Below are positions 24,598 to 28,854 of a stretch of 35,406 bases of DNA, one piece after another (within the stretch, counting starts at the first letter, position 1; each line of letters opens with the position of its first letter). The notes below the pieces were generated by a model. It worked only from the letters and a program-made list of their open reading frames with translations, was not told the origin of the DNA and made no database searches. The DNA is from Pseudomonadota bacterium (GTDB lineage Bacteria > Desulfobacterota > Desulfovibrionia > Desulfovibrionales > Desulfovibrionaceae). The position numbers and the translations under genes were made by a program. The stretch lies in assembly GCA_018817515.1 (NCBI GenBank), contig JAHIUD010000008.1:1-35406 (forward strand), written 5' to 3'.

Positions 24598-24673
24598 TCC
24601 CCGGTAGCTCAATCGGCAGAGCGGGTGGCTGTTAACCACTAGGTTCGCGGTTCAAGTCCGTGCCGGGGAGCCA
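24598..24673 (+). tRNA. tRNA-Asn (anticodon GTT), CCA encoded
   Basis: Full cloverleaf: acceptor TCCCCGG (24598-24604) pairs with CCGGGGA (24663-24669). The D arm is GCTC/GAGC, the anticodon loop is CTGTTAA with GTT at 24631-24633, and the T loop is TTCAAGT. Discriminator G and a genome-encoded CCA (24671-24673) follow. It has its own promoter and terminator and marks the edge of an AT-rich island. Confidence 0.98.
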
Positions 24674-24681
24674 AAAAGATT

Positions 24682-24714
24682 AACGGGTTAGGCGGAAACG
24701 CCTAGCCCGTTTTT
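24682..24714 (+). terminator. rho-independent terminator after tRNA-Asn
   Basis: A 13-bp stem (24682-24694 with 24699-24711, one G-T pair) closed by a GAAA tetraloop and ending in a T run (TTTTT, through 24714). Confidence 0.93.
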
Positions 24715-27107
24715 CAATTTTCAGCGGTTTTAGTGGCAGTATTGGTGGCGATAGGCAGCTTACCTGCTCTTGATCTTTAATTCTCGCCGACGCCTTTAGG
24801 CCGCCACCCCCCAGCATACTTGACCGCGAGTTCAACCAGAGGGTCAGCGCCTTCGGGTTGTGACGACTTCAACACGTCGACCCGCTCTTTAAGAACGGCT
24901 TCGTTTCCGTACAAACCAACCAAAGCATCCCACGCAATGTGGGTTTCACGTTTCACTGCGCGGCCACCAGAGTTTGACAGAGCCTCCCCACTAGCAGATC
25001 GCAATAACGCCAAGGTTGTCCGAGGAGAACTATCGATCTCGACAGGCAAATCCGTGGAACCAGCAGTTCGTTGGACGTGAAGCAACAACTGGAACAAGGC
25101 CATCTCATTTGCCAAAGATTCGGGGCTCGCCTCAGCAACTTCGGCACGCCAATCGGCCTCGAAGCGACTCGCGGATTCCGCAGAGACAAGCTTGTGCCCT
25201 GCCCCTTCTTGGTAGCCCACGATTAGTAGTAGTTCATATTTCGGGGAGAGGGCAACCACTTGAGGCAAAATTTCTCGTACTGCCGATTCTACAGCACTTT
25301 GATCTTTGAGTAACTTTAAAAGCCTGTACACAACCCTCCGAGCTACCATTTTAGTATCGAAATCAAACATGCCGCGCTGACGACTTGGCAAATCTGGCAT
25401 TATGTTTAACAGAACAACAGCTCCAGGAACAACGTCTTGCAAGGTAAATATTTCCTCAAACACAACTAGCGCATTAATAACATCGTGCAATCTATCCACA
25501 TCCAGTGCCCGCAGGCAACTATCAAATTCAGTGGCAGATGACATGTGGCTCCATGCGATCTCAGCATCTATAAAAGCCTTGAAATCGGCACCAGCAACTT
25601 TCTCTAGGTAGAGTCGGAGTACATGCTCATGAGCAACCCGGCGCCCTCTAAGCCATTGGCTTTTCCAGTCGCTCCCATAATTTGTATTTCCAATAAACCT
25701 CTCACCAGCTGGGAACAACCGACGAACAAGTGAGTTGACAACTTCAGAATTGTCTTTTGCAACTTCGATTAGCTTTTCAACTTGCTTTTTTAGGTGTGGT
25801 GGCTCCATGTGCGTGCCAAAGTCGTATGTTGTAGTTAACCCAGAAACAGAGTATTGCAACATACTATGAACATCTGGCATAAACACTCGCACAGCCTCGA
25901 GCGCTAGCAAATCTACAAGATCAATATCTCCACTTGAGCTACGCACAGTGCCGCAAACTGTGGTTACATATCGGCGGACATCTCGCATTGTAATAATGAG
26001 TGGCTTGATTATTTCGTAGAAAACATCAACCCATCTATCTTGATCAAAGCTACTTAAATTCTCAACTCTTGACAGTGCATAGTCAATTCCGCTGGTTATC
26101 TGATGTATTAATACTTTATCCGGAACAACAGGCAGGTCTATGCCAATTTGCAGAATTTTTTCCAGGTAGGAGCGGCCTGGAATCCCCTGTTCCCCAAGAG
26201 CACTTTCCACACGATTACGATCAAATGCCATTAGGTAAATGATGTTTGGGAAATTTGCAGTCAAACGGACCAACTTAAAAATGTCCTGAATTTCTGCGGT
26301 AGTCAGCCTGTCTATGTCGTCCAGGACCACCACAAAAGGTTCCCCGAGTGCACTAAGGGCATTTTCGACCTTGGCCCGACGGCCACTCGAACTTTCTTTC
26401 TTTTGCTGAAACACTTTAGCAATGGCTTTTGCCGCTATCCGTGCCCGCTCAACCCACGGCCCCACAACAGGCACCCAAGCCATCCCAGTAAAAATCTCTG
26501 CATAATCATCCAGCCTTCTACCGACAGCCACAAGTCCTGGGCGAAGCTTTAGTTGTGCCGAAATTTCAGCAAAAAACGAATCTAGGAGTTGTGCTGCCCC
26601 ACTGAACATCCATGGGTTATAGTCAAAGACTACAATACCTTTTTCTTCAAGGCACAGCTTAGCTAGATTAACAAACGACGTCTTACCAGACCCCCAAGGC
26701 CCAAATACGCCGACAACAAGGCCTTTACTTGCATCAATTTGCAGAATCTGCTCTGCGAATTCACGAGCGCTTTTCGCCCTTCCAATGGTGTCTTCTTCTA
26801 GGAATTGGATCGGATTATCTGAACCTACTGTTACCGCGTCTTCCTTCGTTTTTCTCATCGCCTTTACTCCACTATTTTCAATTTCAACATGCCCATTCAA
26901 CATATGCAAAGGCAGGTTTCAGCAAATTTGCAAAACTATTTGAGGAGCTACCTCAGGTTATTGTGAACAAATATTACAGACGGCCTCTTCCCTCAGTCTC
27001 CCATCTACGGGCTACAGATACCAACAAATCCAATTCACATGCAAGGCGCCAAATTCAACCTCTTATGATTCCTGAAGTGGGACAAAATTCCAACCTCACG
27101 AACAGGC
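24715..27107. mobile_element. small AT-rich island between tRNA-Asn and a truncated gene
   Basis: Composition changes sharply: the line 25861-25920 holds 27 G/C of 60, while 27481-27540 holds 48 of 60. The island begins right after the tRNA terminator, contains the KAP NTPase gene, and ends where a GC-rich 3' gene remnant begins near 27108. No integrase, transposase, terminal repeat or duplicated tRNA end was found, so the transfer mechanism is not visible. The exact ends are approximate. Confidence 0.55.
24777..26858 (-). CDS. KAP-family P-loop NTPase
   Basis: A 693-residue STAND-like P-loop NTPase. Visible: the N-terminal SDNPIQFLEEDTIGRAKSAREFA block typical of KAP proteins, Walker A GPWGSGKT (53-60), FDYNPWMFSG (about 78-87) and Walker B FVVVLDDIDRL (about 175-185). 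A mildly hydrophobic stretch (127-137) lies between the Walker motifs. The C-terminal half is unrecognised. KAP relatives include phage-exclusion PifA and animal membrane scaffolds, so phage defence is plausible but unproven. I prefer ATG at 26858 because GGAG lies 8 bases upstream; ATGs at 26903 and 26909 lack a good site. Its AT-rich composition differs from all neighbours. Confidence 0.88.
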   Translation of the reverse strand: MRKTKEDAVTVGSDNPIQFLEEDTIGRAKSAREFAEQILQIDASKGLVVGVFGPWGSGKTSFVNLAKLCLEEKGIVVFDYNPWMFSGAAQLLDSFFAEISAQLKLRPGLVAVGRRLDDYAEIFTGMAWVPVVGPWVERARIAAKAIAKVFQQKKESSSGRRAKVENALSALGEPFVVVLDDIDRLTTAEIQDIFKLVRLTANFPNIIYLMAFDRNRVESALGEQGIPGRSYLEKILQIGIDLPVVPDKVLIHQITSGIDYALSRVENLSSFDQDRWVDVFYEIIKPLIITMRDVRRYVTTVCGTVRSSSGDIDLVDLLALEAVRVFMPDVHSMLQYSVSGLTTTYDFGTHMEPPHLKKQVEKLIEVAKDNSEVVNSLVRRLFPAGERFIGNTNYGSDWKSQWLRGRRVAHEHVLRLYLEKVAGADFKAFIDAEIAWSHMSSATEFDSCLRALDVDRLHDVINALVVFEEIFTLQDVVPGAVVLLNIMPDLPSRQRGMFDFDTKMVARRVVYRLLKLLKDQSAVESAVREILPQVVALSPKYELLLIVGYQEGAGHKLVSAESASRFEADWRAEVAEASPESLANEMALFQLLLHVQRTAGSTDLPVEIDSSPRTTLALLRSASGEALSNSGGRAVKRETHIAWDALVGLYGNEAVLKERVDVLKSSQPEGADPLVELAVKYAGGWRPKGVGEN

Positions 27108-27230
27108 ATCCTGGCGGGGGCGCGCTGCGGGCTGTCCGGCATCCCCAGGCGCTTTCTGGACGGCCTGGCGGACGCGGAGGAAGTGCTCGACCTGGCCCAC
27201 ACCCTGGGCCAGCAGGCCATGCAGGTGTAG
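27108..27230 (+). pseudogene. 3' remnant of an ADP-ribosylglycohydrolase-family gene
   Basis: Forty in-frame codons ending in TAG at 27228-27230 translate as ILAGARCGLSGIPRRFLDGL, then about 20 residues ending GQQAMQV. The AGARxGLxxIPxRxLxxL pattern followed by a short helical tail is the usual C-terminus of the DraG/ADP-ribosylglycohydrolase fold. No start codon or catalytic aspartates precede it: upstream is the AT-rich island. The composition is that of the host. I read it as a resident gene whose 5' part was replaced by the island. Confidence 0.65.
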
Positions 27231-27257: not shown

Positions 27258-27299
27258 CCAAAAGGCCCGGAAGACGCGCGCGTCCTCCGGGCCTTTTGG
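27258..27299. terminator. bidirectional rho-independent terminator
   Basis: A perfect 14-bp outer stem, CCAAAAGGCCCGGA (27258-27271) with TCCGGGCCTTTTGG (27286-27299), encloses a second GC-rich hairpin. A/T-rich arms on both sides let it serve the remnant gene from the left and the cysteine desulfidase-like gene from the right. Confidence 0.9.
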
Positions 27300-27310: not shown

Positions 27311-28651
27311 CTACACGTACCCGGCCAGCTTCTTGTTGATCATGATGGCCAGGATGGTGCGGTCGGTTTCCACCATGCCCTGGGTGGAGAGCTGGCCCAC
27401 GTTGCGCATGGTCTGCTCCGGCGACTCGGCGATGATGCCGTTGCTGGCGCCGATGCGCATGCCGTGCAGGGAAAACAGCGCGGCCTGCACCGCCGTGCCC
27501 GCAGCCGTGGCCAGCTTCAGCGCGCACCCGGCCTTGGCCCCGTCGCAGATGACCCCGGCCAGGTCCTCGATGAGGATCTTGATGGCCCCGGCGATGTGGT
27601 GCAGATCGCCGCCGAGCAGCGCGGCCACGCCCGCCGTGGCCCCGGCCCCGGCCGCCACGGAGCAGCCGCACACGGCGGAGAGCCTGCCCGTATGCGCCTT
27701 CACCGAGGCCGTGACGATGTGCGAGAGCCCGATGGCCCGGAGCGCTTCCTCGCGCCCGCAGTCGAGAAAATCCTTCACCGCCCAGATGGGCAGCACGGCG
27801 GTGAGGCCGTGGTTGCCGCTTCCGGCGCTGCTCATGGCCGGCAGCTTGACCCCGTCCATGCGCGCATCGGCTGCGGCGCTGGTCAGCATGCGCGCGGCCA
27901 GGCTCATGTCCCGGGCCATGAGCTTCTGCCGGGCCAGGCGCTCGAAGGTCTTGCCCACGCCCATGCCGCAGCCGGTCTTCAGCCCGTGCTCGGCCAGGCG
28001 CAGGTTGTGGCGCACGCCCTCCTCCAGGAAGGCCAGGTCCTCGGCGTCCAGGTCGTCGGTCAGGGCGATGAGGTCGGACAAAGGCAGCTCGCGCAGCCAG
28101 GTCTCCAGCTCGGCCACCTCGCTGCCACCAGGGCCCATGCCCTTGAGCAGCGGGCTGTCCGTGATGGCCACGCCGTCCAGGCTCAGGGAAACGATGGCGT
28201 CGTGCTGCCCCTCCACCACGGCCTCGGCCTGGCGCCCGTCCAGGCGGGCCTTGGCGCGGATGTGCAGGCCCCGCTGCTCGGAGAGCAGGTTCACGGCCAC
28301 GCGGCCCTGGCGCAGCATGTCCTTCACGGCCGCCACCACCGCCTCGTCCACCGGATCCAGCACCTCCAGGCCCAGGGCGGCGTCGCCCCCCAGCGCCCCC
28401 AGCGCGGCGGCGGTGTCCAGGCCGCTTAAGCCCCCGGTGCCGGGGATGGTCACGGCCAGCCCATTCTTATAGACGTTGGGGTCCACCCAGACCTCGACCT
28501 CCAGCCGGGGGCGGTCCACGGCGGGGATGGCCCGGCGCGCGCCCAGAAGCGAGACCGCAGCGGCGGCGGCCAGGGCCACGGCCACGGGTTCGGTGCAGCC
28601 CAGGGCCGGAGCCACCTGCAAACGCAACACATCCTTCACGCAGAACGCCAT
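27311..28651 (-). CDS. L-cysteine desulfidase/UPF0597 family (serine dehydratase alpha-like) protein
   Basis: A 446-residue soluble enzyme of the family containing archaeal L-cysteine desulfidase and E. coli YhaM/CyuA, which eliminates H2S from cysteine using a [4Fe-4S] cluster. Conserved cysteine contexts are seen at ALGCTEPVAVALA (Cys19), TGCGMGVGKTFERLA, SAVCGCSVAAGAGATAG and GAKAGCALKLATAAGTA. The family's ISSAGSGNHG-like loop appears as AMSSAGSGNHG. The frame is open upstream, but the ATG at 28651 has GAGGTG at good spacing and begins at the domain. A promoter at 28688-28716 and a terminator at 27258-27299 suggest a single-gene transcript. Confidence 0.9.
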   Translation of the reverse strand: MAFCVKDVLRLQVAPALGCTEPVAVALAAAAAVSLLGARRAIPAVDRPRLEVEVWVDPNVYKNGLAVTIPGTGGLSGLDTAAALGALGGDAALGLEVLDPVDEAVVAAVKDMLRQGRVAVNLLSEQRGLHIRAKARLDGRQAEAVVEGQHDAIVSLSLDGVAITDSPLLKGMGPGGSEVAELETWLRELPLSDLIALTDDLDAEDLAFLEEGVRHNLRLAEHGLKTGCGMGVGKTFERLARQKLMARDMSLAARMLTSAAADARMDGVKLPAMSSAGSGNHGLTAVLPIWAVKDFLDCGREEALRAIGLSHIVTASVKAHTGRLSAVCGCSVAAGAGATAGVAALLGGDLHHIAGAIKILIEDLAGVICDGAKAGCALKLATAAGTAVQAALFSLHGMRIGASNGIIAESPEQTMRNVGQLSTQGMVETDRTILAIMINKKLAGYV

Positions 28652-28687
28652 GAGACACCTCTTTGGGCAAAAATGAATCGCTGCCGA

Positions 28688-28716
28688 TAGGTATGCGCGC
28701 GCACCACGGCAGTCAA
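28688..28716 (-). promoter_or_regulatory. putative promoter of the cysteine desulfidase-like gene
   Basis: Minus-strand TTGACT (28716-28711), 17 bases, TACCTA (28693-28688). The predicted start near 28680 gives a leader of roughly 30 bases containing the ribosome site. Confidence 0.5.
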
Positions 28717-28812
28717 GGAAACCAAGGGTCTCCTCCGGGGTCAGGCGGAAGGAATTTCCCTGTCGGCCCCACCAAGGCATGACGTAACAGCTTGAAATAA
28801 CAGCATGCACAC

Positions 28813-28829
28813 TTGGCACGGGTATTGAA
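28813..28829 (+). promoter_or_regulatory. sigma-54-type promoter of the hook operon
   Basis: TTGGCACGGGTATTGAA matches the sigma-54 consensus TGGCACG-N4-TTGCW with exact GG-N10-G(A/C) spacing. The -12 element reads TTGA instead of TTGC. Flagellar hook genes are commonly sigma-54 dependent. Transcription would start about 15 bases before the fliK ATG. Confidence 0.75.
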
Positions 28830-28854
28830 ACATGGCGACTCAAAGGAGCACGCC

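Follow-up and report, generated by a model that had tools for sequence, protein, structure and literature searches.

A lone KAP-family ATPase gene, probably of defence function, in a foreign insert at a tRNA-Asn slot of a Desulfovibrionaceae genome

The insert behind tRNA-Asn

The stretch of DNA analysed here, hereafter the window, comprises 35,406 nucleotides of contig JAHIUD010000008.1 (assembly GCA_018817515.1) from a bacterium of the Desulfovibrionaceae. Within it, an AT-rich insert lies behind a tRNA-Asn gene and carries a single gene, which encodes a KAP-family P-loop NTPase (Table 1) with a probable role in defence. An earlier note, made from the letters of this stretch, had described a foreign one-gene island beside the tRNA, and the composition bears this out: G+C content is 47.1% for positions 24717-27104 versus 66.2% in the rest of the window, where the lowest value for stretches of equal length, sampled every 100 bases, is 60.5%, and where the sliding mean is 66.0% with a standard deviation of 2.4%. 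The insert holds one long open reading frame (ORF), that of the KAP gene, and no second plausible gene. Like tRNA-borne integrative elements, the insert sits immediately behind a tRNA 3′ end, whereas the integrase and att repeats of such elements are lacking: as the earlier note had also reported, neither an integrase gene in the insert nor a direct repeat bracketing it was found, and the tRNA 3′ end is not repeated on its far side. At Rfam gathering thresholds, the tRNA alone was matched.

Table 1. Features of the tRNA-Asn slot, in window coordinates
Feature	Position	Strand	Basis
tRNA-Asn (gtt), left boundary of the slot	24598-24673	+	ARAGORN; Rfam tRNA, 64.9 bits over 24598-24670
Terminator-like hairpin behind tRNA-Asn	24682-24711	+	13-pair stem, then T tail
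AT-rich foreign insert in the tRNA-Asn slot	24674-27104		G+C content
KAP-family P-loop NTPase, 693 aa, intact	24777-26858	-	Pfam PF07693
C-terminal half (residues 385-693), predicted HEAT-like helical solenoid	24780-25706	-	Structure model
ADP-ribosylglycohydrolase remnant, last ~41 codons	27105-27230	+	Gene intact in G002 and G007
Hairpin like the one directly after tRNA-Asn in the G008 slot	27258-27299		Inverted repeat; alignment to G008

The right junction lies at about 27105, where homology to the same-genus genome G002 resumes. Positions 27102-27227 correspond to residues 319-360 of the 360-residue ADP-ribosylglycohydrolase of G002 at 79% identity, which confirms the truncated downstream gene of the earlier note. 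Since the gene is intact in relatives (in G002 by its match to Pfam ADP_ribosyl_GH, in G007 as read from the translation), its 5′ end has been lost here; no other copy was found in the genome itself, which is 95% complete in 114 contigs. Beyond the remnant, the second hairpin, which aligns to G008, marks the return of ancestral DNA.

On the left side, homology to relatives ends within a few bases of the tRNA. The earlier note had placed the insert exactly after the tRNA terminator, but this terminator is unlike the sequences found behind the same tRNA in four close relatives (G002, G003, G008 and G013), and the foreign DNA therefore probably starts at the tRNA end itself, at 24674. The hairpin would thus probably belong to the incoming DNA. 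Its sole matches in the order are weak (84% over 37 bp, E 2e-4): one follows tRNA-Glu immediately in G218, and the other is in G023, a genome of that genus, where ARAGORN called no tRNA; terminator-like sites in the region number five, versus 3.4 expected. Among 345 genomes of the order, the end of the insert at 24674-24790 has short matches only, in three other genomes, and the end at 26862-27104 matches no other genome. A 23-base motif common to the insert and G143 was dropped, as it recurs in no third genome of 342 and, in a shorter form, in no viral contig. An assembly artefact is disfavoured, as judged from the contig alone, by genus synteny on both sides (lysS, fliK) and by a right junction that falls inside a real gene.

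The tRNA-Asn slot in the genus

The tRNA region and both flanks were searched in the window's own genome and in 14 genomes of the same genus, ten of which gave readable slots, one of them partly as N. Left out were G006 and G010, whose contigs end about 55 bases past the tRNA, G005, whose tRNA was not recovered, and G011, where only a distant tRNA was matched. The earlier note had held that presence of the gene at this site, with matching composition, in all close relatives would speak against its reading; it is present in none of the 14 genomes.

The note had also asked whether the slot holds different cargo in related genomes, and the contents read show that it does. Two slots have no insert: in G008, the tRNA is followed by a hairpin, a homologue of the serine dehydratase alpha chain (the next gene of the window) and fliK, and in G003 fliK begins 138 bp after the tRNA. 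A hemerythrin gene precedes fliK in G013, and G002 carries a MarR regulator, a methyltransferase, the intact glycohydrolase and the dehydratase homologue. The glycohydrolase is likewise intact in the G007 slot, while in G012 the match to it and the tRNA are 18.3 kb apart, and one of the genes in between encodes a sensor kinase-type protein. The G014 slot (L103:2195-4465) contains a type I restriction R subunit running to the contig end, and that of G009 a stretch reading N followed by a Mom-family gene (L104:4548-5285), which suggests phage DNA in the same slot. Those of G001 and G004 hold other genes, as read by eye. Slot content therefore varies among relatives, and one slot holds a known defence gene.

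The dehydratase homologue adjoining the insert (window 27311-28843) is matched on a different contig from tRNA-Asn in six same-genus genomes (G005, G006, G007, G009, G010 and G014). In G007, the tRNA contig continues with other genes, and the homologue therefore lies elsewhere; a contig break could explain some of the other cases.

The KAP protein

The longest ORF spans 24777-26909 and would encode 710 residues from a TTG start. The likely start, however, is the ATG at 26858, which gives 693 residues and is favoured because GGAG lies upstream and because it fits where relatives begin. The family assignment of the earlier note stands, with a match to PF07693 (KAP_NTPase) at 2.5e-40 and 139 bits, against a cut-off of 20. 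Walker A lies at residues ~53-61 and Walker B at ~176-183, and in 35 aligned sequences, the window protein included, Gly56, Gly58, Lys59, Asp180 and Asp181 are invariant, as are Arg292 and Arg296. Matches to STAND-type and related domains remain below their cut-offs (nSTAND_NTPase5, 15.5 bits versus 34; AAA_16, 31.4 versus 32.6).

A structure model (pLDDT 84.4, pTM 0.75) predicts a C-terminal HEAT-like solenoid that ends in a conserved YxxGWRP motif and that may serve as a sensor. The earlier note had called this half unrecognised, and indeed 33 of 34 members have no Pfam match there at E 0.01; the one match in the window protein, to SAC9_C, is below that family's cut-off. Between Walker A and Walker B, an insertion (residues ~110-155) is of low confidence in the model and contains a conserved hydrophobic patch. 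By simple hydropathy, the window protein has no clear membrane helix, its highest 19-residue value being 1.52; some aligned relatives reach 1.7-2.0.

Relatives and their distribution

Matches at E ≤ 1e-10 were obtained in nine of the 348 genomes of the order, among them the window's own genome, the best match outside it being 32% identical; vertical inheritance was rejected on these grounds. Relatives were collected by an alignment-based scan of species genomes, of which the best 80 of 436 loci were taken; alignment A3 omits L154. Among these 80, the nearest relatives, 50-55% identical over most of their length, are from Marinobacter (55%), a planctomycete, a cyanobacterium, Methylocaldum, acidobacteria, a WOR-3 bacterium and Rheinheimera, and at least ten phyla contain full-length relatives with identities of 30-55%.

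A quick tree of 86 rows puts the window protein into a group of 42 rows with a support of 99, which covers at least ten phyla by the names in the tree. The PifA protein of plasmid F lies outside it, as a long branch of unsure place in a group of 41 rows (support 93). Of the eight other matches from the order, L109-L112 and L002 are on the PifA side, L114 and L115 are outside both groups, and L113 was not placed in the tree. L002, from the same-genus genome G005, is a different KAP NTPase, 28% identical, and is encoded on another contig than the one with the tRNA-Asn match of that genome.

An origin as a prophage or plasmid gene was also rejected: scans of phage records and viral contigs were empty, and while 1,050 of 72,556 plasmid records match, one alone covers at least 80% (Streptomyces, 34% identity). 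A single-protein scan of species genomes returned 32 stretches that fit the pattern, none of them confirmed; it missed the 55% relatives that were found with the alignment, and null scans of this kind, the viral one included, are therefore weak evidence.

Comparison with known systems

The earlier note had linked the gene to PifA, which is likewise a KAP P-loop NTPase and is of similar length (741 residues). The two proteins are 27% identical over window residues 12-243, and a profile comparison aligns them over residues 14-577 of 693 with 99.8% probability, whereas the C-terminal half of the window protein taken alone cannot be related to PifA (0.1%). All 35 aligned sequences match the PADLOC PifA model, the best at 1.2e-78. 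However, the window protein scores 191 bits over residues 11-383, versus 963 bits over the full length for PifA itself, and the clade members tested singly (the window protein, L118 and L123) reach 191-215 bits, whereas five KAP proteins of the PifA side (L109, L110, L111, L112 and L160) score 351-393 bits over nearly the full model, and L002 263. The window protein and L118 match over their first half only; L123 matches up to position 701, with 215 bits. Furthermore, F-plasmid pifA is adjoined by pifC, and no pifC lies beside the window gene. With neither a full-length model match nor a grouping with F-plasmid PifA in the quick tree, the link as first worded is weakened and not supported, the window protein lying in a separate clade. 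Nonetheless, given the profile alignment to residue 577 and the near-full match of L123, deep common ancestry with PifA over the whole length is possible.

In structural comparison, the N-terminal half aligns best with RdrA, from RADAR, at 12-14% identity; a C-terminal match to RdrA was not established. Unlike RADAR, the window gene has no rdrB deaminase beside it, its flanks being tRNA-Asn and the glycohydrolase remnant. All 35 aligned sequences match QatA models and the PDC-S20 model PDLC04959, but the window protein attains 32 bits on NCBIfam NF041923 against a cut-off of 600, and as the insert holds no second gene, qatBCD are absent. Tmn is described as a KAP-family NTPase in defence (PMC11846954); it has two transmembrane domains, in contrast to the window protein, in which simple hydropathy showed no membrane-like stretch.

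Genes beside the relatives

Neighbours up to eight genes away were clustered for 44 loci, comprising 39 loci of the 42-row clade, L162 and L179 of the PifA side, and L122, L138 and L156, which are not in the tree; L157 of the clade and the plasmid row L116 are outside this set, and a 38-locus neighbour set consists of the 39 clade loci minus L170. The ORFs come from a simple longest-ORF script, so that some of them are spurious. No conserved partner gene emerged, the two largest clusters (by eye a GTPase and an ABC transporter) each covering four of the 44 loci. At 64 of 79 loci, counted both inside and outside the clade, the G+C content of the KAP gene is more than two points below that of the flanking DNA. 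A tRNA lies within 1.3 kb, a cut-off picked after the distances were seen, at six of 44 loci (1.7 expected, p 0.003) and at nine of 80 (4.0 expected, p 0.003).

Defence genes do occur beside some relatives. The first 150 of 171 eligible ORFs within three genes (bag A4, L118-L153) matched 279 PADLOC families at 1e-10, versus 60 for a control bag (A5) of equal length, with 149 genes drawn at random from 178 that lie seven or more genes away, although these counts are not independent, because one protein can match many related models. Twenty large neighbours from 12 loci, chosen by size after the bag result, were then tested singly; nine of them, from six loci, match a defence model at 1e-40 and 11 do not. 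These matches are to LmuA and LmuB of Lamassu (L130), type I S and M subunits and a type IV-like enzyme (L129), GajA of Gabija (L139), PDC-S06 (L136 and L149) and a helicase (L125). Some KAP genes of this set have a Lamassu, type I restriction or Gabija gene no more than three genes away. Together with the control comparison, these neighbours uphold the earlier proposal of defence as the likely role.

A different arrangement was seen outside the window's clade, where the KAP genes L160, L161, L163, L164, L167, L168 and L176 lie between a large gene and a DrmA gene. In L160, the large gene matches MmeI weakly (E 2.8e-5), the DrmA gene matches solved DrmA at E 0, and a RapA/SNF2-type helicase gene lies upstream (E 1.9e-33). 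This operon of large gene, DrmA and helicase with the KAP gene inside, which we take to be DISARM-like, recurs in seven of ten loci compared, and five of the ten also have a gene of ~660 residues that by eye is GHKL ATPase-like.

A proposed role and its alternatives

Horizontal arrival of the insert is well supported and a defence role is probable; in both respects the earlier note was largely right. We consider it likely that the gene encodes a single-gene KAP immune ATPase, in which the solenoid senses infection and the ATPase assembles. The gene would have been acquired horizontally, as part of an element that entered behind the tRNA-Asn 3′ end with a terminator of its own, and a flanking deletion would then have taken any integrase and the 5′ end of the glycohydrolase gene; we infer the order of these events, and likewise the mode of movement, since no integrase or att repeat survives. 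The C-terminal solenoid may detect a phage product or an infection state, whereupon ATP binding could drive ring-like assembly of the N-terminal KAP/AAA+ domain, by analogy with RdrA, and the assembled protein might halt phage growth, possibly through abortive infection. A candidate for the effector, at a guess, is the insertion between the two Walker motifs.

Several observations weigh against this proposal. No effector domain, toxin or non-ATPase enzyme active site was recognised in the protein, none of 50,697 phage records matches it, and a close-relative scan of viral contigs found no relative. Ranked by the E-value that Foldseek gives, RdrA comes tenth, behind ORC chains, and the PADLOC matches of the clade rest largely on the shared KAP domain. 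Near the relatives, the family counts are interdependent, as noted, six of the 12 probed loci have no defence match at E ≤ 1e-40 among the proteins tested, and Phage_integrase is matched by two of the 150 near neighbours, so that mobility is weakly marked. No phage challenge of a clade member was found in the literature searched. As for PifA, earlier work pointed to sensing of phage T7 proteins and to killing through membrane depolarisation; in the study that recounts this work, T7 and one close relative alone were sensitive, and immunity, its authors allow, may not have been the main driver of PifA evolution (PMC8594841).

The best surviving alternative, still an unlikely one, is that the gene is all that remains, as a selfish or neutral relic, of an integrative element that has decayed, and that it has survived by chance and no longer functions. 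The truncated flanking gene and the loss of any integrase, att repeat or other element gene would suit such decay. However, the frame of 693 codons is intact with the invariant KAP residues in place, and the relatives, too, are lone genes, in many phyla and with no shared neighbours.

Slightly less probable still is a cellular job apart from defence (membrane, cytoskeletal or regulatory) for a KAP NTPase that has spread horizontally. KAP NTPases form a varied group, not all of them known for defence, and the literature searched yielded no test of a clade member. Against it stand the patchy distribution, with all seven of the eight other matches from the order that are in the tree falling outside the clade, the defence genes beside some relatives, and best structural alignments that are to a defence ATPase. 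It is very improbable that the protein is a subunit which depends, as RdrA does on RdrB, on a partner that is encoded elsewhere in the genome or has been lost: although the N-terminal half is RdrA-like and DISARM-like operons include KAP relatives from outside the clade, the largest neighbour cluster covers four of 44 loci and the insert has no second plausible gene.

Significance

The KAP NTPases include PifA, long known for excluding phage T7. Tentatively, and with slightly less confidence than doubt, the single-gene immune ATPase proposed here can be placed in a distinct, undescribed family of one-protein immune receptors, which would combine a KAP ring-forming ATPase with a HEAT-like sensor solenoid, require no separate effector, and be distributed as lone genes over at least ten phyla, apart from PifA. 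On the present comparison, the name PifA may be given in defence catalogues to two separate clades by way of the ATPase domain that they share. The clade presents a minimal form, a single gene without a conserved partner whose product has a sensor-like half; the window protein also lacks any clear membrane segment. Its relatives in many phyla offer a choice for expression and structure determination, and the clade is well suited to studies of the KAP mode of action.
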